Source: Oerskovia paurometabola
Lineage (GTDB): Bacteria > Actinomycetota > Actinomycetes > Actinomycetales > Cellulomonadaceae
Direction: 5' to 3'
DNA length: 64,000 bases
NCBI RefSeq assembly: GCF_016907365.1
Contig: NZ_JAFBBV010000001.1
Span: forward strand, 2,666,001-2,730,000
Below, piece by piece: positions 38,716-49,948 of this stretch; the first letter of the stretch is position 1, and each line of letters begins with the position of its first letter. The position numbers and the translations under genes are program-made. The notes below the pieces were generated by a model that saw only the letters and a list, made by a program, of their open reading frames with translations, was not told the DNA's origin and ran no database searches.

Positions 38716-40821
38716 CTACGCGTCCGCGAGCGCCTCCGCCCGTCCGAGCACGAAGCGTGCCCGGAGGAGCGTCGCGGTCGTCGTGCTGGTCGTCAGCGCC
38801 TCGATCGTGCGTCCCACGGTCACCATCCCGAGGTCGTGGGCGAGCCGCGCACGGTCGTCGAGCACGCTCTGCTGGTGCGCGGTGAGCCTGCGGCGTCCGG
38901 TCGCGCCGAGGGAGTCCACGACGTCGCGTGCGGGCTCGCACACGCGGGTCACCGGACCGCGCGGCTGCGGTTCGGCCACGTGGACCGCCGCGCCGCGGTG
39001 CAGGGCGGCGATCCGCGCCCGCAGCCGGCGCAACGCCGTCCAGCTCACCGCACGGAACGCCGGGGACATCGACGGGGAGAAGAGCTCGACGCTCCCCTGT
39101 CCGGTCCGTAGGAACACTCCGACAGGCTCCTCCGACCCCTTCGAGGCGTCGCGCTCGACGAGGACCGCGACCACCTGCTTGCGCGACGCCACGACCGAGA
39201 GCAAGGCATCGATGCTGCGCTCGTGCTCGACGCCGACGCGCAGGACGTGCGTGACGCCGTCGGCGGACGTGACCGGCCAGGTGACGTCGCGGCGGACCTC
39301 GTCGACCCCGACAGCCCCGGTCTCGCGCACCATGACGAGGCGGACGCGGCGCCGAGCCCGGCCGAACCCGACCGTCCCGGCGGTCACCCCGTCCAGGTGC
39401 TGCGCGATCTCCCGCAGCTCGGCGACGTCGAAGCCCCCGCCGGGGACGAGGCTCGTGCGCGAGGTCGTGCTGATCGACCCGTCCGGCCGCGTCTCGGCGT
39501 CGGCGAGCTCGAACGGACCTGCGCACACCGCGGTGACCGACGCCTTCCAGAGCAGCGGCAGGTCGACGTCCCGGCGGAAGGTCGGGTCCGCGCCAGATGG
39601 CCGCGCGACCGTCGCGGTCCGCAACGTCCCGTGGCGTGCGTCCCAGGCCGTGAGCGTCAGGCCGCGGGCACCGCTGGGTGCCTGCCACCACCGCACGCCG
39701 AGCGGCACCAGGCGACCGGGGAGCTCGTCGCCGGGTTCAGCGTCGGCGGACCTGCGCACTGGTGCCCCCACCAGGTCGGGCAGGGCTCCAACGGGTGCGT
39801 CCCGCAACGCCGCCGCGAGCGCCCACGCCTCGGCGAGGGCGCCGAGCGCGTCGGACTCGCTCACGTCGTCGTCGCGCGTCGCGAGGCCGTCGACGAGTCC
39901 CGCCGCGACGAGCAGCAGCCGGTGGAGCAGCAGCAGGCCCACGAGCCGCGCGCGGGCAGCGGCGCCCCGCAGCCCGTCGGCCGCGTCGGCGCCGAGGTGG
40001 GACAGCCCGGCGTCGACCACGTGCCCGACGACGGCGCTCGCCTCCTCGATCCCCGCACGCTGGGCCGTGGTCAGCTCGCCCGAGCGTTCGGCCTCGATCT
40101 CACGGGGCCACGGCCACGACCTGCCCTCGCGGGCGAAGACCCGGACGACTGCCTCGAGCCGTGCTGCGGCCTGCTCGCCGGCCGAGCGTGCACCGGCGAC
40201 GACCATGCCCGCGAACCCCGCGGGGGCCACGAAGACGACCTGGGTCGGGGTGCCGGTGCCGTCCGTCCACGTGATCGTGAGCCGTGCACCGTCGGCCGCG
40301 ACCTCGCACGCGGCGGGCGCGCCCGGACCGTCCTGCCCGAGCCCGGCGAGCAGCGCGGCCGGGAGCCGTTCGACGACCCGTCGCAGCGCGGGCCTGCCCG
40401 CAGCCCGGCACACGGCGACGGGTTCGAGCGCGAGGAGGTCGGCCAGGGCGTCCGGGGCGGTCGCACGGTCGCACGCGCCTCGGTCCGCGGCGACGCCCTC
40501 GTCGAGCGTGGTCGGCGCCGGTTTGGCGGGCTCCCGCGGGCCGCCGGGCTCGCGTTCGCGGGCCCACAGGCACGCCGCGACCACGTGCTGGCACACGCCC
40601 GCCGTCGGGCACGAGCACGACGCCGCCACCGGACCCTTGGGCCCGAGCCGCACCACCGCGCTCCCGCACGCGACCACGACCTCGGCCGCGGACTCCGACG
40701 TGAGCGACACGTCGCCCGCCGCGAGGTCCTTGCGGGCGCGACGCAGCAGACCGGCGTTGGCGAGCGCGACGAGCGCGGCGTCGTCGTATCCCGCGAAGAC
40801 CGCGAGCCAGTCCGGCGTCAT
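38716..40821 (-). CDS. SWIM zinc-finger protein (YehQ-like), last gene of the MoxR-VWA operon
   Basis: A 701-aa protein. The SWIM finger is near the N-terminus: ASCSCPTAGVCQHVVAACLW gives Cys69, Cys71, Cys77 and His79 (CxCx5CxH). SWIM fingers bind DNA or protein. The remaining 600 residues are helical then beta-rich, with no enzyme motif recognised. GGAGGTG lies 5-6 nt before the ATG, which overlaps the VWA gene stop by 4 nt (ATGA). E. coli YehQ, also a SWIM protein, sits in a cluster of the same composition. It may act as the targeting or substrate-recognition subunit of the system (inference). Confidence 0.88.
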   Translation of the reverse strand: MTPDWLAVFAGYDDAALVALANAGLLRRARKDLAAGDVSLTSESAAEVVVACGSAVVRLGPKGPVAASCSCPTAGVCQHVVAACLWAREREPGGPREPAKPAPTTLDEGVAADRGACDRATAPDALADLLALEPVAVCRAAGRPALRRVVERLPAALLAGLGQDGPGAPAACEVAADGARLTITWTDGTGTPTQVVFVAPAGFAGMVVAGARSAGEQAAARLEAVVRVFAREGRSWPWPREIEAERSGELTTAQRAGIEEASAVVGHVVDAGLSHLGADAADGLRGAAARARLVGLLLLHRLLLVAAGLVDGLATRDDDVSESDALGALAEAWALAAALRDAPVGALPDLVGAPVRRSADAEPGDELPGRLVPLGVRWWQAPSGARGLTLTAWDARHGTLRTATVARPSGADPTFRRDVDLPLLWKASVTAVCAGPFELADAETRPDGSISTTSRTSLVPGGGFDVAELREIAQHLDGVTAGTVGFGRARRRVRLVMVRETGAVGVDEVRRDVTWPVTSADGVTHVLRVGVEHERSIDALLSVVASRKQVVAVLVERDASKGSEEPVGVFLRTGQGSVELFSPSMSPAFRAVSWTALRRLRARIAALHRGAAVHVAEPQPRGPVTRVCEPARDVVDSLGATGRRRLTAHQQSVLDDRARLAHDLGMVTVGRTIEALTTSTTTATLLRARFVLGRAEALADA

Positions 40822-41984
40822 ACGAGCACCTCCCCGAGCCACTCGGCGAACCGGTCGGGCGTGAGGGCCGCGACGTGCATGCCGCACTCGGCGAGGCGGC
40901 GGGCCGTCCCGTGGTCGTAGACGGGCTCCGCGGCCTCGTCGAGCGCCGCCAGCCCCAGCATCCGGACACCGGACTCCGCGAGCCGCCGCACGCCCGCGAG
41001 GAGCTGGGTGACCGAGCCGCCCTCCTCGAAGTCGCTCACGAGCACCACGACCGTGCGGCTCGGGTTCGTGACCTGCTGCTCGGCGTAGCGCACCGCCTTG
41101 GCGATGTCGGTGCCACCGCCCAGCTGTGCCGTCAGCAGGACCGCGACCGGGTCGTGCGCGAGGTGCGAGAGGTCGACGACGTTCGTGTCGAAGACCGCGA
41201 GCCTGACGGTGATCCCCGGCAGCGCCGACATGATCCCGGCGCACACCGCGCTGTAGAGCAGCGAGGCCGCCATGGAGCCTGACTGGTCGACGAGCAGCAC
41301 GACCTCCCAGGTGAGCGTGCGGCGCACCCTCGACACGAACCGCACGTCCTGCACGATCAGTCGCCCGGACTCCGGGTCGTAGCGCGAGAGGTTGGCCGCC
41401 AGGGTGCGCTTGCCGTCGAAGTTCTGGCTGACCTCGTGCACCGAGCGGCGTGACCTGTCCTTGCGGCCGGTGAGCGCGGTCGCGAACTGCGGGCGCAGCC
41501 GTCGCACGATGTCCTCCACGACGCGCGCGATGACCGTGCGGAGCCCGGCGGCGGCGCGCTCGTCGAGGCGTCCGCGCACCTGCAGGAGAGCGGTCGCGAG
41601 CTCCCGGCTGGGCTCGAGGGCCTCGGCCGCTTCCGGGTCGGCGAGCAGGTCCGTGAGCCGGTACCGGCTCACGGCGTCGACCTGCATGCGCTCGAACGTC
41701 TCGCGCGGGAAGAGCGTGCGAGCCTGGCCGAGCCAGTCGAGAGCCTTGAGCGCCGACGGGTCGAGGCTCCCGCCGCCGCCGCGCCCGCCCGGCCCCTTGC
41801 CCAGGCGGTGCCCGCGCTCGACGTACTCGCGGTCGTACAGGTACTGCAGCGCGCGCTCGACACCGGTGTCGGCCGGGTCCTGCGGGAGCTCCTGGGCGGC
41901 GTAGCGGCCCAGGACGAGCCGCCAGCGGCGCGCGGCCTCGAGCTCTTCGGCGGTCGCCCCTGGACGGGCGGTCGGGACGGTCAC
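40818..41984 (-). CDS. VWA domain protein (YehP/CoxE-like)
   Basis: A 388-aa protein. The N-terminal 200 residues are helical, with a Gly-rich hinge GKGPGGRGGGGS at about 63-73. The C-terminal von Willebrand A domain has a complete metal-ion adhesion site: DQSGSMAAS (residues 233-241, DxSxS), the Thr in LGGGTDIAKAV and the Asp in VLVSDFEEGG. VWA proteins of this type work with MoxR AAA+ ATPases as adaptors or chaperone partners (RavA-ViaA is the best-studied pair). The start is a GTG whose GTGA overlaps the DUF5682 stop. It is similar in domain layout to E. coli YehP. Confidence 0.92.
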   Translation of the reverse strand: MTVPTARPGATAEELEAARRWRLVLGRYAAQELPQDPADTGVERALQYLYDREYVERGHRLGKGPGGRGGGGSLDPSALKALDWLGQARTLFPRETFERMQVDAVSRYRLTDLLADPEAAEALEPSRELATALLQVRGRLDERAAAGLRTVIARVVEDIVRRLRPQFATALTGRKDRSRRSVHEVSQNFDGKRTLAANLSRYDPESGRLIVQDVRFVSRVRRTLTWEVVLLVDQSGSMAASLLYSAVCAGIMSALPGITVRLAVFDTNVVDLSHLAHDPVAVLLTAQLGGGTDIAKAVRYAEQQVTNPSRTVVVLVSDFEEGGSVTQLLAGVRRLAESGVRMLGLAALDEAAEPVYDHGTARRLAECGMHVAALTPDRFAEWLGEVLV

Positions 41985-44611
41985 GGCAGGTTCTCCTGGT
42001 CGGACGGAGGGTTGGCAGGGGTGCGCTGCGACGTGCTGACGACCCACGCGCCGAGCCCGTCGCGCGCGAGCATCGCGGAGAGCTCGCGTTCGAGCGCGAG
42101 CCCGGCGTGGAGGTCCTGCTCGGTCGCGGCCAGGTGCACGTCGATCCGCTCGGCCCGGAAGCCCGTGCGTGTCGCGACCTGCTGCGCGAGCCGGTGCGTC
42201 TCGGCCGGCTTGAGCCACGTGAACGCACGGCGCAGGTCCGGCAGGACGGCCAGGAACGCGTCCCCGTCGAGGTCCCGCAGACCTGCGTGGACGGCGTCGA
42301 AGAGCTCGGGGGTGTGCAGCAGGAGGTCGGGGGCGACGCGCAGCAGCCCGCCCAGGAAGCGGACGGCGGCGACCGGGTCCGCGCCCGGGCTGAGCTGGGC
42401 ACGCACCTCCGCGACCAGGACGTCGTCGTCGAGGGCGTCGTGGGTCGCGGCGAGCGCCACGAGGGCACCTCGGACGCCGGGCGCCGCGCTGCGGTCTCCG
42501 CGGAGCCGGTCGAGCTCGCGGAGCACGGGTTCCGCTCGGTCCGTCGCGGGTACGGCACCACTCGTGGGGCGCGCGGCCCTGCGGGGGTCCGCTCCGTCGT
42601 CGGGACCGGGTGCGCGTGCGGCGCGCCCCGCCTCCCGCAGGAGGTCGCGCAGGGCGACGAGCGTCCCGACGGCGGCAGGTTCCGCGTCCGCGTCGACCGC
42701 ACCGAGGCCCGGGACGAGGTAGGCGACGGTGGCGAGGCCGTGGTCGAGCAGGTCCAGGAGGTCGTCCGCGTGGTCCTCCAGGCCCAGCTCGACGCGAGCG
42801 TCCCACAGGTCCACGAGGCGGTGCAGCCCGCCCACGACGGACTCGAGCGAGGGGTCGACGTCGAGCGTCGAGCGCAGGAGCGCGACCAGGCGGTCGAGGT
42901 GCTCCGACAGTCCCGCGACGACGGCCTGGGCCACGAGGCGGGCCACACCGAGCGCCGAGCGCCCCGTCGTCGCGAGCTCGTGCTCGAGGCGGTGGAGGCG
43001 GTGCACCGCGACGGCCTCGAGCGTCGCACCCTGGTGCGAGAGCTCGACCAACGACGCCTCGACGAGGGGCGTCCAGGCGTACTCCCACTCCTCGATCAGG
43101 AGCCCCAGGCCGCGCCCCGCGACGTGGTCGGGCCCCGAGACCTGGCGTGCGAACCCGCTGCCGACGAAGTCCATGAGCGCCAGGAAGGCCCGGCGCTCCC
43201 GGTGGCGCGGCGTGCGGCGCGCGTCGAGACGCGTGCGACGCGGCGTCGAGTCCGTCACCACGAGACGCAGGTCCTCGGCCCGCTCCCTCGCACGCTGCAC
43301 GAGCGGCGGCGACGCGGTCCCGGGCGGCACCTCGCCGAGCGCGCGCCCACCGAACACCTCGGCGACCGCCTGCCCGAGCGGGCGTCCGATACCCACGTCG
43401 AGCCCCCCGTCGTCCTTGACGAAGCACGACGTGAGCGCGTCGAGGAGGTCCGTCCGCCCCGGCCACGGGCGCTCGCGCAGGTCCGCGAGCCGAGTCGCCT
43501 GCTCGGCCGCCGACGCGATCTCGGCCAGGCTCACCTGCGCCCCGCGCGCGGTCGCGGCCGCGGCGACGTCCACGAGCAGAGACGTGCCCAGCGCACTCGG
43601 CCCACCCGGCTCCCGGTGCGCGGCCCAGAGCCGCTCGTAGAAGCCGGGCGACGGCATGCCCGCCCCGTAGCCCCGCAGCCCGTCGAGCCGCTCGTGGTCG
43701 TAGCGGATGAGCCAGGCGTCGGCCGACGTCGGCGGGCCGTAGCCCCCGGCGGGACGGCGGCTCAGGACCGCCTCGCCCTCGGGAGCGCCCGTGAGCGCCT
43801 CGACGAGCGCGAGCGTGTGGAACGCGCCGGTCACCACGACCACGGGCCCCTCGACCCGGGCCCGGTGCTCGGCGACCCGGGCCGACATGAGGGCCTCGCG
43901 CGCGAGCGACCCGTCGGCGTCGAGCACCTCCTCCTCGTAGTCGAGGCGTGCGAGACCTGCCCACGCGAACACGTCGTCGAACAGCTCGCGCCAGTCCGCG
44001 AGCCGCTCGCTCGTGCGTGCCTCGAAGAGGTGGTCCCACACCTCGTCGTGGTCGCGGCACCCCAGCCGCTCGGCGACCGCGGCGATCGTCCGCGAGTGCG
44101 CGAGGTTGCGCTCGGACTGGAGCGTGCGGGCGAACGCGTCGTCGCCTGCTCCCTCCGTGCCGTCGTCGGGTGCGACTCCTCCGGCCACCTCGCCGGACCG
44201 GTCGCCGGTCGCGCGCGCGCCCCACGACCGGTCGACGAACGCGACCTCCGCGCCCAGCCGGGCCCCGGTGCGCAGAGCCACCCACTCGGGCGAGAACTCG
44301 GCGAGCGGGTAGAAGCCCGCGCCGCCGCCCTCGGTCCCCAGGCTCAGGACCGCGACGGGCGGACGTGTGCGCGGGTCGAGCAGCGCGGGCAGGAGCCGCC
44401 CGTACTCCTCGGGCCCCTCGACGAGCACGACGGCGGGCCGCACCTCCTCGACGAGCGCCCCGACCGCGAGCGCGCACGCCGGGCTGTGGTGGCGGACCGG
44501 CGCGAGGTAGATCCCGTCGACCCGCAGGCGTTGGACCGCGGCGGCGGCGGCCTGCATGCGCTCGGGCGCACGACCCCACGCGGCTCGCGCCGGCGCCTGC
44601 GCTACTGCCAC
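41981..44611 (-). CDS. DUF5682 family protein (YehM-like)
   Basis: An 876-aa cytoplasmic protein. The N-terminal region opens with GIYLAPVRHHSPACALAVGALVEEVRPAVVLVEGPEEYG, and later GPVVVVTGAFHTLALVEAL; this His/Glu/His pattern recalls the ChaN/TraB/PrgY-like (TIKI) hydrolase fold, so a metal-dependent activity is possible but unproven. The rest is mostly helical and leucine-rich, with LLDLLDHGLATVAYLVPGLG near 620. The GTG start overlaps the MoxR gene by 10 nt and the end overlaps the VWA start by 4 nt. It occurs consistently with MoxR, VWA and SWIM genes, as in E. coli yehL-yehM-yehP-yehQ. Confidence 0.88.
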   Translation of the reverse strand: MAVAQAPARAAWGRAPERMQAAAAAVQRLRVDGIYLAPVRHHSPACALAVGALVEEVRPAVVLVEGPEEYGRLLPALLDPRTRPPVAVLSLGTEGGGAGFYPLAEFSPEWVALRTGARLGAEVAFVDRSWGARATGDRSGEVAGGVAPDDGTEGAGDDAFARTLQSERNLAHSRTIAAVAERLGCRDHDEVWDHLFEARTSERLADWRELFDDVFAWAGLARLDYEEEVLDADGSLAREALMSARVAEHRARVEGPVVVVTGAFHTLALVEALTGAPEGEAVLSRRPAGGYGPPTSADAWLIRYDHERLDGLRGYGAGMPSPGFYERLWAAHREPGGPSALGTSLLVDVAAAATARGAQVSLAEIASAAEQATRLADLRERPWPGRTDLLDALTSCFVKDDGGLDVGIGRPLGQAVAEVFGGRALGEVPPGTASPPLVQRARERAEDLRLVVTDSTPRRTRLDARRTPRHRERRAFLALMDFVGSGFARQVSGPDHVAGRGLGLLIEEWEYAWTPLVEASLVELSHQGATLEAVAVHRLHRLEHELATTGRSALGVARLVAQAVVAGLSEHLDRLVALLRSTLDVDPSLESVVGGLHRLVDLWDARVELGLEDHADDLLDLLDHGLATVAYLVPGLGAVDADAEPAAVGTLVALRDLLREAGRAARAPGPDDGADPRRAARPTSGAVPATDRAEPVLRELDRLRGDRSAAPGVRGALVALAATHDALDDDVLVAEVRAQLSPGADPVAAVRFLGGLLRVAPDLLLHTPELFDAVHAGLRDLDGDAFLAVLPDLRRAFTWLKPAETHRLAQQVATRTGFRAERIDVHLAATEQDLHAGLALERELSAMLARDGLGAWVVSTSQRTPANPPSDQENLP

Positions 44612-45759
44612 AGGGACTCCGCCGCGGAGAGGAAGGACTTCCAGCGCGGGTCACGTCGCGCCCGTTCGCGCACCACGTTGTCGACGTAGTGCCGCAGCCG
44701 CCGGGCGTCCTCCTCGTCGCCCTTGGAGGCCACGCCCGCGAGCTGGCGCGCGACCTCGGCCGGGGTCACGGTGCCGTCGCCCAGGTAGCGGGCCTCGAGC
44801 GACGCGGCGACCGCGACGTTCACGGCCTCGGCCGTCGACATGACGGTCTCGGGACGCTTGACGGGCGCACCGTTGCTCGTGGCCCCGGTCCGCAGGTCCT
44901 GGAACGCCGTGACGAGCACGTCCAGGACGTCTCGCGCGAGCGGCGGGCGCTCGCCCGCCGGGCCCAGCTCGGCCGTGAGCTGGGCCTCGATGAGGTCGAT
45001 CTCGAACTGGCGGTCCGTGAGGGGCTTGATCGTCTCGAAGTTGAACCGTCGCTTGAGCGCCGCCGACATCTCGTGGACTCCCCGGTCCTTGAGGTTCGCG
45101 GTCGCGAGCACGTTGAACCCGGGGCGGGCCGAGACCCGCGCCTCGCTGCCGAGCTCGGGGATCATGAGCTGCTTCTCGGAGAGGATCGAGACGAGGGTGT
45201 CCTGGATCTCGGGCGCGCAGCGCGTGATCTCCTCGAACCGGACGACCTTCCCGGCGCTCATGGCCTGCTGGACGGCCGACGGGACGAGCGAGCGCTCGCT
45301 GGGTCCCTCGGCGATGAGCAGCGCGTAGTTCCACGAGTAGCGGACGTGGTCCTCGGTCGTGCCCGCGGTGCCCTGGACCGTGAGGTTCGACGTCCCGCTC
45401 ACGGCGGCCGCGAGCAGCTCGGACAGCATCGACTTCGCGGTACCGGGCTCCCCCACGAGCATGAGTCCCTGGCGGCCGAGCAAGGACACGACGGCTCGGT
45501 CCACGAGCGGGTCGTCACCGTAGAACTTCCGTCGCACCCCGAGCTCGGCGTCGCCCACGACGAAGGCGCGCACGGCCCGTGGACTGAGCCGCCACCCGGG
45601 CGGCAGCTCGGAGCCCTTGGCCCGGTCGGCCGCCTCGAGGACCGCGAGCTCGTCCGCGAAACGCACCTCGGCGGGCGGGCGGATCTCCTGGGCAGGGCCG
45701 CGGTCGAGGACCGCTGCCTCTTCGTGGGTGCTCGCCGAGGGGGTCGGGGTGGTCACCAT
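44602..45759 (-). CDS. MoxR-type AAA+ ATPase (YehL-like)
   Basis: A 385-aa AAA+ ATPase. Walker A is VGEPGTAKS (102-110), Walker B VVRFEEITR (172-180), and sensor 1 lies in FNVLATANLKDRG. The arginine region follows in ALKRRFNFETI, and a C-terminal lid continues past residue 300. MoxR ATPases act as chaperones that remodel or mature partner complexes together with VWA proteins. The ATG overlaps the DUF4132 gene stop by 7 nt (ATGGTGA) and its own end overlaps DUF5682 by 10 nt, so all five genes are translationally chained. It is the motor of the proposed system. Confidence 0.93.
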   Translation of the reverse strand: MVTTPTPSASTHEEAAVLDRGPAQEIRPPAEVRFADELAVLEAADRAKGSELPPGWRLSPRAVRAFVVGDAELGVRRKFYGDDPLVDRAVVSLLGRQGLMLVGEPGTAKSMLSELLAAAVSGTSNLTVQGTAGTTEDHVRYSWNYALLIAEGPSERSLVPSAVQQAMSAGKVVRFEEITRCAPEIQDTLVSILSEKQLMIPELGSEARVSARPGFNVLATANLKDRGVHEMSAALKRRFNFETIKPLTDRQFEIDLIEAQLTAELGPAGERPPLARDVLDVLVTAFQDLRTGATSNGAPVKRPETVMSTAEAVNVAVAASLEARYLGDGTVTPAEVARQLAGVASKGDEEDARRLRHYVDNVVRERARRDPRWKSFLSAAESLWQ

Positions 45760-48700
45760 GCGCTCTTCTTCTCCCAGGCGGCGTCGAAGCTGCCACCGGC
45801 AGCGACGGTCAGGTAGTCGCGGTAGGACTCCGCGACGAGGACGGGCGGCAGGTCCGCGAGGCGCGCCTCGGCGCTCTGCCCGTAGGCCCGGGTCGAGCGG
45901 CGGAACACGAGGTCGGTGATCGCCGCGGGGATGTTCTCCTCGGGCAGGAACGCGCCCGTGAACTCGATGACCGCGGTGATCCCGACGCTCGGGTACGCCT
46001 TCTCGTAGCCCGAGAACCAGCCGCCGTCCTCGGCCTGGCTGCGCGCGTAGCCGAGCTTCGTCGCCCGCCCGCGGACCGTGAAGCTGTCCGTGAGCCAGCC
46101 CTTGCGGTCGCTGATCGCGGTCGCGCTGCGGTCCGTCACGGGCACCGTCACCTGGAGCTGGTCGAACAGCGGCCTGATCTCGTAGTCGGCGAGGTGCTCG
46201 CGCCACCGACCGGCCTCTTCCGCGCCGAGCAGCACGCCGTGCGCGACCGAGACCGTCGCGCCCTGCGCGAGGGTCACGTCCTCGTCGTCGACGTCGATGA
46301 GCGCTCCGGCATCGCCCGGTCGGAACGCCCGCTGGTCCGGACCGGGGTTCTCGAGCCACACGAGCCCGGCCGCGAGCCGGGACATGACGGGGTGCCCGGC
46401 CACGAACTCGAGCCAGTCGGCGACGGGCCACTCGCGCCCCGTGCACATGGCCTCGTAGAGGCGCTGGGTCTGGAGCGCGACGACGGCCTTGAGCTCCTTG
46501 CGGCTCGTCGAGAGCTGCGACTTGGCGGCCTTGACCTGGTCGGGGTCGTCGTCCGCGCGCGGCGTGGGCAGGGCCTTGACGACCTTGCCCGCGTCGTTGG
46601 TGAGCTCGAGCGTGAACGTGGGCGTGATGCGCCCCGTGTACTCGCGTGACCCGAGGTCGAGGTGCAGGATGCCGTCGTCCTCGAAGCCCGCGGTCTGCAC
46701 CGTACGGTCGGCGAGCTCCTCGGCGGACCAGCCCCGTCGTTCGGCCAGGTCCTCGGCGAGCTGCTGCGCGGCCGCCTGCACCGTGGCCTGGCGGTGACGC
46801 CGCGCCACGGACAGCAGGAGCTGGATCGACGCGGGATCGCCGTTGGCCGCGAGCGCCCGCACGAGGGCCTCGATCTGTGCACGGCGCGTGATGTGCGTCT
46901 TGAGGTACTGCTGCACGGCACGCGTCAGGTCGGCACCGGGCATGCCGACGGTCAGCGCGAGCAGCCCCTTGTCGGCGATGGCCGACCCGAGGTAGTTCGC
47001 CTGGTGCTCACGGAACGCGTCCTGGTGGTGCTGGTCCACGGTCCGCGAGGCCTCGGCCTCGTAGTACTGGGGGTGCTGCTTGTACCAGTGCTGGTAGCGG
47101 TCGTAGCGCTGCTGGGCCTCGCCGTCCGCGTAGGCCCGGCTCTCCTCGGCAGTCGGGCCCTGGGTGTCCTTGCCGATCCACGCGTCGAGCACGAACCGGC
47201 CGAGCGCCGCGCGGCTCTCGACGTCGAGCAGGGACTCGTAGCGCGCGATCAGGCCCAGTCCGCTGGGGTCCTTGAGCTTGACCGCGAGCACGACCCACCA
47301 GCGCACGACCTCGACGGGCACGGGCTCGCCGTCGGCGGCCCAGCGGAGCGCGGGCAGACCGTCGATCGGGAACCAGGCCATGCTCGCGGGTGCCTTGGCC
47401 TTGAGGCCCTTGGTCGCCTCGGCGAGCAGGGTCGCGGGTGCGAGCTCGAGGGCGATGTCGTCACCGAGCGCTTAAGAGCCCCGAGGAGCGCGGCGCGGGC
47501 CACCTCGCGACGTTCCTTGGCGAGCGCGGCTCGCAGTGCCGGGACCGCTGCCGGGTCGCCGAGGCGTTGGAGCCAGACGGCGGCCGTGACGCGGATCTCG
47601 GCCTTCCCGTCGCGCAGGCCCTGCTCGGCCAGCTCGCGGGCCCCGACGTGCGACTCGAGCACCTTCTGCGCCGCGACACGGTGCGTCTTGCCTTCGCCGA
47701 GCGCGAGCTCGGCCAACCGCGGGAGGTAGCGGTTCGGGATCGTCGGGAAGGCGCCGAGGATCGTGAGCGCGACCTCGAGCCGCTCCGAACGGCTGTACGT
47801 CTGGACCGTGCCCGACGGCCGCAGCCCCAGGATCGTGTCGAGCGCGCGCGGGTGCTCGGCGAAGTAGGGCCACAGGTGCTCGGGGGCGAACGTCCCGCGA
47901 GCGAACCAGGAGTCGAACACGAGCTCGGCGACGGCCGACTCGGAGTCCTGCACACCGGCCCGCTCGACACCGTCGGCGAGGATCCGGAGGTCGACCGCGA
48001 TGTCGGTCGTCGCGTTGAGCTGGTACCAGGGGTAGCGCTGCCTGCCGCCACCGTGCGAGCGCGCGAAGCGGATGTCGTGGAGCATGGTCAGACCGTCGAG
48101 CCGGCCCCGGATCGCGGGGGCCTGGAGCTCGACGAGAACGGTGCGCGGCGGCACCTTGGTCAGGGCGCCCGAGAGGTACTGCGCGACCTGCGTGAGGTGG
48201 TCGTCGGTGATGGCCGCGAGATCCTTGACGGCTCCCCGGGCGTGCGACAGGCGCCAGCTCTGGGCCTCGGCCTGGGGGAGCGCCTCGAGCGCGGCGAGCT
48301 CGTCGCGGGCCGCAGTGAGCCTGCGGTCCACCGCGTCGCGGGCCGAGCGCACGAACGCGTCGCCGAGGGCGACCTCGGGCAGGGGCGTGAACGGCGGGAC
48401 GTCGAGGGGCTCGTCGACGACGACCGTCGCGACGTCGAGGGCCGTGGCCCGCTCGATCGCGTTCGACAGCAACGTGCCGCGCGCGCCCCGGCCGTCGGCC
48501 GCATGGGCGCGGCGCAGGACGTCGATGCCGCCCTCGACCCCGACGAGGTGGGTCACGAGTCCCCCGAGCCGGCTCGCGGGCATCGTGGTGAGCAGGGGTT
48601 CGAGGAGCGCGACCTGGCGCTCGGCGGGCAGGGCCGCGAGGTTCCCGGCGGCCTCCTCGCGCACGGACTTGGCGTTGTCGGTCGCGAGCTGGGCGACGAG

Positions 48701-49639
48701 CCCGACGAACGCGTCCAGTGCGGCGGGCCGGGTCCGCAGGAACCGCAGGAGCTCGACCTTGCCGGTCGCGCGCAGCAGGGGTGCGACCGCGGCGACGTCG
48801 GCTGGGTGCGCGACCAGGTATTCCTCGACACCGGGCTGCGCCGCGAACACCGCGAGCGGGTCGCCGTAGTAGTCCGCGGTGACGGGGCGGTCGAAGATCC
48901 CCGCCACGACGGCGGTCGGGATGCTCCCCTCGGCCACGCCGCCGTCGCGCAGGATCGCGGTCAGGAGCTCGGGGGTCCACTGGCTGCGCACGCCCGGCTT
49001 GCCGTTCTTGCCCGTGGTGCGGCGGTCGCCGCACGTCTTGGCGACGTCGGTCAGGAGGGCGGCAAACCAGGCCGGGAGCCGGTCGGAGGCCCGCGAGACG
49101 TCGGGCGAGACGGCCGCGAGCAGGCGGCCCGTGCGGACGAGCGCGTCGATCCCCACGGGCTCGGTCAGCGTGTAGAGGTTGCTGCGGGCCGTGGCGCCCT
49201 TGTTGACGTTCCAGCCGGGCACGCGCTCCTTGATGGCCTTGTCCTCGGCCTGGGTCGTGTACGTCCAGGCGCCGAGCGTCGCGGGCCGGTTGAGCAACCG
49301 GTCCACCGCGTCGTCGCCGCGCTGCGACAGCTCGGTCACGAGCTCCGGCCCGTCGCCCGTGTGGACGTAGGCGATCGCTCGGGCCGCGAGACCTTCGGTG
49401 GCCGCGTCCAGGATCTTCAGTCCGTCGACCAGCCGAGCCGAGGGCTCGGCGCGCCGCCGACCCTCTGCACGGCCGGGCGCCGTGCCGCCGCCCTCGACCG
49501 CACCGTCGTGGTCTCCCTGGAGCCAACCCTTGATCTTGTCGAACACGCGTCCCACCGTCTCCTCCGGGCCGCCGGACCGCGTCCGGAGGCCGCCGCGCTC
49601 CGTCGGCGCGGCGTCGTCGGTCACAGTAGGAGAAGCCAC
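45753..49639 (-). pseudogene. DUF4132 protein (MolR/YehI-like) interrupted by a frameshift
   Basis: Two minus-strand frames together encode one DUF4132 protein of about 1,295 aa. The first (GTG 49639, or a GTG five codons in) runs normally to ...RAALLGALK at 47471, after which it becomes Arg/Ser/Pro-rich nonsense. The second continues with sensible sequence from 47471 (ALGDDIALELAPATLL, then MAWFPIDGLPALRW at 47381) to a stop at 45753. A TAA in the second frame at 47474-47472 fixes the switch to right after the AAG codon, as if one G were lost from AAGGCG. The N-terminal part is helical repeats; the C-terminal half ends with the family's GYEKAYPSVGITAVIEFTGAFLPEENI. It could be a true mutation or a sequencing error. 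Confidence 0.85.
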
Positions 49640-49874
49640 CGACAGGCGTCGATGCTGTCAGTGGAGATCGGTCGGGTGAATCGGTCGGGGGACGCCCGCC
49701 GCGGCCGGTCCCCTCCCCGCCCGACGGCGCTGCGCGGCCCCGGTGGCCGGGTCCGGCGTGGTGCTGGCTGCCTCCGACCCGTGGTCGACAGGACGCAGGC
49801 GGTGCGGCGGGCAGGGGGCGAGGGAGCCTGGCGTTCGCTCGACCTCGCACGCCCTCGCCGAGCGAGAGCTGGGG
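49640..49874. other. 235-bp gap between the DUF4132 gene and tRNA-Val
   Basis: Must contain the promoter of the five-gene operon (minus strand, upstream of 49639). A GCCCGACGGCGCTGC stretch near 49720 and a CCGGTGGCCGGG hairpin near 49740 could terminate the tRNA transcript. No gene was seen. No A/T-rich -10 element is obvious. Confidence 0.4.
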
Positions 49875-49948
49875 TGGGCCCGGAGGGACTCGAACCCCCG
49901 ACATCCACGGTGTAAGCGTGGCGCTCTAACCAACTGAGCTACAGGCCC
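49875..49948 (-). tRNA. tRNA-Val (anticodon UAC)
   Basis: Complete cloverleaf on the minus strand. The acceptor strands GGGCCTG and CGGGCCC pair with one G-U. The D arm is GCTCAGTTGGTTAGAGC; the anticodon arm CCACG-CTTACAC-CGTGG has anticodon TAC; the T arm is GGGGGTTCGAGTCCCTC; the discriminator is A. CCA is not encoded. 74 nt. Confidence 0.97.

Follow-up and report, generated by a model that had tools for sequence, protein, structure and literature searches.

A five-family MoxR–VWA operon of Oerskovia paurometabola, homologous to E. coli yeh and Deinococcus ddrVWX genes, lies behind a PafBC-type promoter motif and is probably part of the DNA-damage response

A five-family operon on the minus strand of the Oerskovia paurometabola genome (assembly GCF_016907365.1, contig NZ_JAFBBV010000001.1) combines a MoxR AAA+ ATPase and a VWA protein with members of the DUF4132, DUF5682 and SWIM families, and it raises the question of when such a set of proteins is called upon and what it does. 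The operon extends from 38716 to about 49.6 kb of a 64,000-nt stretch (contig positions 2,666,001 to 2,730,000), the whole of which is referred to here as the window and supplies the coordinates used throughout. We read it as encoding a DNA-damage-inducible MoxR–VWA protein-remodelling machine, a reading to which we assign a probability of about 0.62; the machine, ATP-driven and so far unexplained, probably contributes to the bacterial response to damaged DNA. The reading rests on the make-up of the operon, its conservation, its promoter motif, the place of the operon among motif-bearing repair genes and the homology to the ddrVWX genes of Deinococcus, all of which were established in the present analysis.

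The operon begins with a DUF4132-family protein, present here in two parts, an N-terminal part with weak HEAT matches (47249–49555) and a C-terminal part with the PF13569 domain (45753–47471, E 2e-36), for which the AlphaFold model had a pLDDT (predicted local distance difference test) score of 94. These are followed by a MoxR ATPase of YehL type (44602–45759, MoxR/AAA_5 hidden Markov model match E 8.6e-36), a DUF5682 protein of the YehM/DdrW family (41981–44611, PF18934, E 1.6e-107), a VWA protein of CoxE type belonging to the YehP/DdrX family (40818–41984, E 2.7e-50) and a SWIM zinc-finger protein of the YehQ family (38716–40821). The first-pass annotation, which had been made from the DNA letters, had described five minus-strand families chained by successive overlaps of 7, 10, 4 and 4 nt, and the profile matches and coordinates bear this out. 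Its Walker site in the MoxR protein and metal site in the VWA protein were also recovered, in that the Walker A motif GEPGTAKS and the VWA metal-site motifs are common to the window and E. coli proteins; the residues concerned are those which we take to be the Walker A and metal-site positions. The CxC/CxH finger that it had noted in the last protein (C69, C71, C77 and H79) was invariant across 48 aligned sequences, though the SWIM Pfam score of 18.9 bits was slightly below the cut-off of 19.6. The DUF5682 protein has an N-terminal alpha/beta domain, which was compared with ChaN/EreA/TraB-like proteins in fold and in the region of their GxxH motif and possibly has a ChaN/EreA-like fold, and a helical C-terminal part; the closest named relatives of this protein were from Oerskovia.

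The same five families occur in E. coli K-12 in the order yehI (DUF4132), yehK, yehL (MoxR), yehM (DUF5682), yehP (VWA) and yehQ (SWIM), that is, in the same order and on the same strand as in the window; the first-pass annotation had already pointed to this cluster as being of like composition. The E. coli cluster differs in having yehK between yehI and yehL, and yehF (PF05406) and the pseudogene yehH upstream. All five families matched by tblastn: the MoxR protein was 47% identical to YehL over 361 residues (E 9e-95) and the C-terminal DUF4132 part 31% identical to its E. coli counterpart, while the VWA, DUF5682 and SWIM proteins, for which failure to match the yeh families had been named beforehand as one refuting outcome, gave 42% to YehP, 27% to YehM over 796 residues and 34% limited to 68 residues, respectively.

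To collect relatives, a DUF5682 alignment was scanned over species genomes, which gave at least 557 confirmed relatives. Profile searches and a tabulation of neighbourhoods, as had been suggested at the outset, placed all five families on one strand in 74 of the 80 loci fetched, these being the best 80 of the at least 557 and as such biased towards the window's own type, with family calls made from profiles built on those same loci. The hosts, judged by name, include Actinomycetota, Pseudomonadota, Planctomycetota, Verrucomicrobiota and Cyanobacteria, and the earlier expectation of a full set conserved across phyla was upheld. Among the 74 complete loci, 59 had the window order, nine had DUF4132 last and six had VWA–SWIM first. 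The six incomplete loci were L033, L044, L045, L056, L086 and L090, with L044 on a short contig and the match near a contig end in L033 and L045. By our own estimate, a once-per-genome gene would lie within 10 kb by chance in less than 1% of cases. Within the Actinomycetota, DUF5682 was present in 21 of the 296 genomes drawn, this genome included, and DUF4132 exceeded its cut-off in 14 of the 296; in nine of these 14, from coordinates read by eye, DUF4132 was within approximately 7 kb of DUF5682 on the same strand. In E. coli the yehL–yehQ stretch matched 5301 of 5426 genomes, 5162 of them over at least 80% of its length, and the MoxR gene was found in 7 of 7 Oerskovia genomes. In several loci DUF4132 genes numbered at least two, placed ahead of the operon or next to it (for example L034, L037, L050, L051, L071, L073 and L074, and also L077, L081, L087, L094, L103 and L106).

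Fusions of DUF5682 with VWA were observed in P0019, P0021, L032, L134 and L135, from which direct contact of these two proteins may be argued, and this supports the view that they are direct partners. The earlier picture of an ATP-driven MoxR–VWA machine is a sensible one, but the word "undescribed" attached to it was too strong, as seven MoxR subfamilies have been named, YehL among them, and E. coli K-12 has two MoxR ATPases, of which YehL is one (PMC3893208), and a Deinococcus version of the set has been published as ddrTUVWX (PMC5552922). The gene set is thus already known by composition. Literature searches of open-licence papers turned up no function for the yehL cluster.

The strongest hint at when the operon is used, which the first-pass annotation had missed, came from the sequence directly 5' of it, where the minus strand carries the motif TGTCGGTG-N8-TACTGT (49623–49644). 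This fits the consensus of the LexA/RecA-independent damage promoter, tTGTCRgtg-8nt-TannnT as quoted in PMC5656591, except for the first base t; in mycobacteria the motif is served by PafBC. When the pre-operon sequences of seven Oerskovia genomes were aligned, the only block common to all seven held the motif, while much else upstream diverged, and the motif was exact for TGTCRGTG-N8-TANNNT in 7 of 7, with L012 differing in one base of the spacer. This exact pattern was found at 12 sites in the 4.33-Mb genome of O. paurometabola, one of them within the window, compared with none for the reversed control. The genes behind eight of the other 11 sites were assigned by Pfam to UvrD, RecA, a DEAD-type helicase, UvrB, a tyrosine recombinase (PF00589), MgsA/RarA, subunit A of gyrase/topoisomerase IV and an RNase_T-type exonuclease. 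The genome also encodes a WYL protein and, adjacent to it, a second WYL protein with the PafC helix-turn-helix domain (HTH_PafC, 121 bits), so that both the promoter motif and PafB/PafC genes are present. Together, the motif, the company of repair genes and the PafBC genes place the operon, by sequence, in the damage regulon of this genome, and its membership of a PafBC regulon is strongly predicted. The list of roles left open by the first-pass annotation (stress, toxin control or phage defence) can be narrowed by this motif to the DNA-damage response.

Three further observations were made around these sites. The remaining three motif sites of the genome (L016, L026 and L027) lie before an ABC transporter-like gene, judged by eye, and before glyoxalase-like and ACT-domain genes, assigned by Pfam, and these would be possible new members of the damage regulon. 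On the opposite strand TGTCAGTG occurs a second time (49656–49677), forming an inverted repeat with the PafBC motif and lacking the -10 part; the same arrangement recurs in the Oerskovia loci L029 and L030. A tRNA-Val gene (tac) is located just upstream of the operon at 49873–49948.

The breadth of this promoter was then assessed in 49 actinobacterial loci, made up of 25 loci of the window's own architecture (type A), 20 loci from 18 genomes drawn from the phylum and four further loci from the same genomes; as several loci share a genome and the exact-motif carriers form two groups, the counts are not independent. Exact motifs numbered 23, and all 23 were located at the 5' end of a gene of the system (17 scored by script, and L118, L134 and L137–L140 by coordinates), with reversed controls of 0. 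In nine of the 25 type-A loci (502,747 bases in all) a single exact motif was present, always at the 5' end of a gene of the system, and three more had a one-mismatch site that no more than one shuffle in 200 equalled. In the 20 phylum-draw loci (391,550 bases) exact motifs occurred 10 times. The script scored eight of these at a 5' end; the other two are that of L118, which has the same offset from MoxR as in the neighbouring L119 and lies inside a longer stop-to-stop frame, and that of L134, directly before a 292-residue frame carrying the DUF4132 domain. The four further loci, fetched for DUF4132 near DUF5682, each had one exact motif before the DUF4132 domain.

Two other architectures occur among these loci. 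Type B consists of SWIM, MoxR, DUF5682 and VWA, and genus g8 supplies eight such loci (L117–L124), in which the SWIM gene is divergent and the motif in the shared promoter is exact on the SWIM side with one mismatch on the MoxR side. Type C consists of a small DUF4132-domain gene, a long gene, MoxR and a DUF5682–VWA fusion (L134 and L137–L140), each behind an exact motif, with not all parts matched in every fetched stretch. Six genus-g8 genomes contained 49–70 exact sites each compared with 0–3 for reversed controls, so that in these genomes the motif greatly exceeds its control; if genus g8 is Streptomyces, these counts also call into question a preliminary statement that S. venezuelae does not conserve the PafBC motif (PMC9380542). 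Among 55 non-actinobacterial loci (1,158,331 bases) there was one stray match, the same as in each of two controls.

Damage control of related genes has been published for Deinococcus, where ddrTUVWX is a radiation-induced operon controlled by IrrE/DdrO; the paper tabulates the genes most strongly induced by radiation, and four of the five operon members are listed there (PMC5552922). In D. taeanensis the locus reads SWIM, DUF5691, AAA, an open reading frame of 78 residues, DUF5682 and VWA, which fits the statement in PMC9510100 that this strain has ddrTUVWX with a 78-residue open reading frame between ddrV and ddrW. Profiles of the window type matched its AAA (1e-116), DUF5682 (5e-102) and VWA (7e-108) proteins; the D. 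taeanensis SWIM protein has the finger but gave no match to the window-type SWIM profile. The letters DdrV for MoxR, DdrW for DUF5682 and DdrX for VWA were assigned from gene order. Like the window operon, this member of the radiation/desiccation response (RDR) regulon has the MoxR, DUF5682 and VWA homologues together, a SWIM-finger gene and a link to DNA damage; it differs in that DUF5691 replaces DUF4132, the SWIM gene comes first and is alike only in its finger, and the regulator is DdrO/IrrE. A scan for the radiation/desiccation response motif (RDRM), which covered the Deinococcus locus and 20 phylum-sample loci, found TTATGTTTCTGGCGTAA approximately 20 nt before the first D. taeanensis gene; it scored best across the 19.4-kb locus and departs from the D. 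radiodurans consensus at two positions, with 0.13 such matches expected.

In E. coli, CTGGATAAAATTACAG differs from the LexA core at one position and stops 9 nt short of yehF. The DUF4132 region of the E. coli yeh cluster is presumably the gene formerly named molR. E. coli molR is listed as LexA-regulated in PMC11039860 and PMC4576408, a regulator other than that suggested by the PafBC-type motif of the window. What would be new is that, as judged from homology and gene order, the YehL/M/P core corresponds to DdrV/W/X, and that in some of the actinobacteria it is predicted to stand under PafBC-type promoters; in open-licence papers neither the yehLMP–ddrVWX link nor PafBC control of the cluster was found.

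RavA–ViaA and NorQ–NorD resemble the window operon in pairing a MoxR ATPase with a VWA partner, but we know of no DUF5682, SWIM or DUF4132 partner for either. RavA and NorQ are also placed in other MoxR subfamilies than YehL (PMC3893208). A further comparison is with the MoxR–vWA "ternary" conflict systems described in PMC7159879, and the operon could be an anti-phage system of that kind, induced by phage or plasmid damage, in which the pair gates a DUF5682 or DUF4132 effector that harms the infected cell. We consider this unlikely. The MoxR Walker A motif GEPGTAKS does have the GxxxTAKS P-loop form noted there for two such systems, its bpMoxR match is close to threshold (25.8 of 27 bits) and the presence of DUF5682 in Actinomycetota is patchy, as given above; but DUF5682, SWIM and DUF4132 stand in place of the third components of those systems, none of which (VMAP, iSTAND, FtsH or beta-propeller) was matched by Pfam over cut-off in the five proteins, and no PADLOC (2023) match was better than E 0.019. 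The near-universal occurrence of yehL–yehQ in E. coli and of MoxR in Oerskovia is unlike most defence systems, and the partners are constant in 74 of the best 80 loci. The P-loop form of the MoxR protein (44602–45759) hints in itself at a common origin with the ternary systems.

It is improbable, in our estimate, that the pair is a metal- or cofactor-insertion chaperone in the manner of NorQD, CoxDE or Mg-chelatase, maturing a metalloenzyme, with the damage promoter explained by a repair enzyme or by metal stress. The VWA protein belongs to the CoxE family, characterized MoxR–VWA pairs insert metals (PMC13036017, PMC9976466) and the old name molR suggests molybdenum, but no client metalloenzyme was found within the five-gene set itself (the flanks of the 80 loci were not tabulated), and the results given in PMC8533742 for moeA and moeB are that neither was differentially expressed on DdrO depletion.

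The DUF4132 gene required correction. The first-pass annotation had given a single gene at 45753–49639, but this span, at 3,887 nt, does not divide by three, and third-position GC and stops put the N- and C-terminal parts in different frames, with the change between the stops at 47474 and 47251; near 47.47 kb the gene is not open in one frame in this genome. The DUF4132 member of this YehL-type cluster therefore has the PF13569 domain of its family but no single open frame. The other Oerskovia genomes (6 of 6) carry both parts in a single frame, the exception being the first 39 residues in L010, mostly upstream of the likely true start, which match in another frame. The change is therefore a mutation or sequencing error of this genome, and programmed frameshifting was rejected on the same grounds. 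The start formerly proposed, GTG at 49639, is formed by the last three bases of the promoter's upstream element, and GTG at 49555, behind GGAGGAG, is probably the better start.

Several results weigh against a role in the damage response. Besides the broken DUF4132 gene in this very genome, 26 of the 49 actinobacterial loci have no exact motif. Of the type-A loci, 13 of 25 had neither an exact nor a one-mismatch site, the operon start being off the contig in three of these 13 (L033, L044 and L045); 10 of the 20 phylum-draw loci had no exact motif, including the type-B loci L125–L131 and L136, among which a one-mismatch site occurred only in L136, and L132, where the operon start is off the contig. 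The carriers of exact motifs fall into two groups, Oerskovia with its relatives and genus g8. In the E. coli 6.5 kb there were four one-mismatch matches to the LexA core where 2.0 are expected, and no enrichment of LexA boxes was seen before the 80 fetched loci, with four matches to a relaxed gamma-type pattern against 3.0 expected and 0 to 1 for the alpha, actinobacterial and UmuDAb-type patterns. Three lineages thus have predicted or reported damage control, of which the others give no evident sign. A rival reading, in which the motif matches by chance and the operon has some everyday housekeeping or stress function that DNA damage does not touch, would accord with the motif-free actinobacterial loci and with the lack of enrichment of known damage-regulator sites in the non-actinobacterial ones, but is very improbable given 23 of 23 placements at system 5' ends with empty reversed controls, retention of the motif in all seven Oerskovia genomes amid diverging sequence and the damage control published for the Deinococcus operon and for E. 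coli molR.

For the damage-inducible machine that we favour, induction in Oerskovia itself, the contacts between subunits and the whole mechanism and target are inferred as follows. PafBC is activated by single-stranded DNA in mycobacteria (PMC11804915), and in other systems MoxR–VWA pairs serve to assemble or activate the complexes that they target (PMC7159879). DNA damage would lead PafBC to activate the operon, and the ATP-driven unit would consist of the MoxR ring with its VWA partner. In complex with the DUF5682 protein, to which it is fused in some relatives, the VWA protein would present the target, with the DUF4132 protein and its HEAT-like repeats serving as a large scaffold or damage-site adaptor, a place that DUF5691 takes in Deinococcus, and the SWIM protein contributing a zinc finger. 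ATP hydrolysis might then remodel or strip a protein complex that needs changing after damage, or activate the DUF5682 domain.

A broader proposal can be offered tentatively, and we regard it as doubtful at present: the YehL/DdrV MoxR–VWA–DUF5682 complex might be a widespread and unrecognized arm of the DNA-damage response that came separately under the control of PafBC, DdrO and LexA and in which the AAA+ motor loads or frees a ChaN/EreA-like enzyme domain of DUF5682 at damaged DNA, with DUF4132 and DUF5691 as interchangeable scaffolds. The PafBC-type promoter and the correspondence of YehL, YehM and YehP with DdrV, DdrW and DdrX yield a concrete and cheap hypothesis, that the yeh and ddr genes matter after DNA damage. 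If this is true, an AAA+ remodelling machine would be added to damage regulons that are differently controlled.

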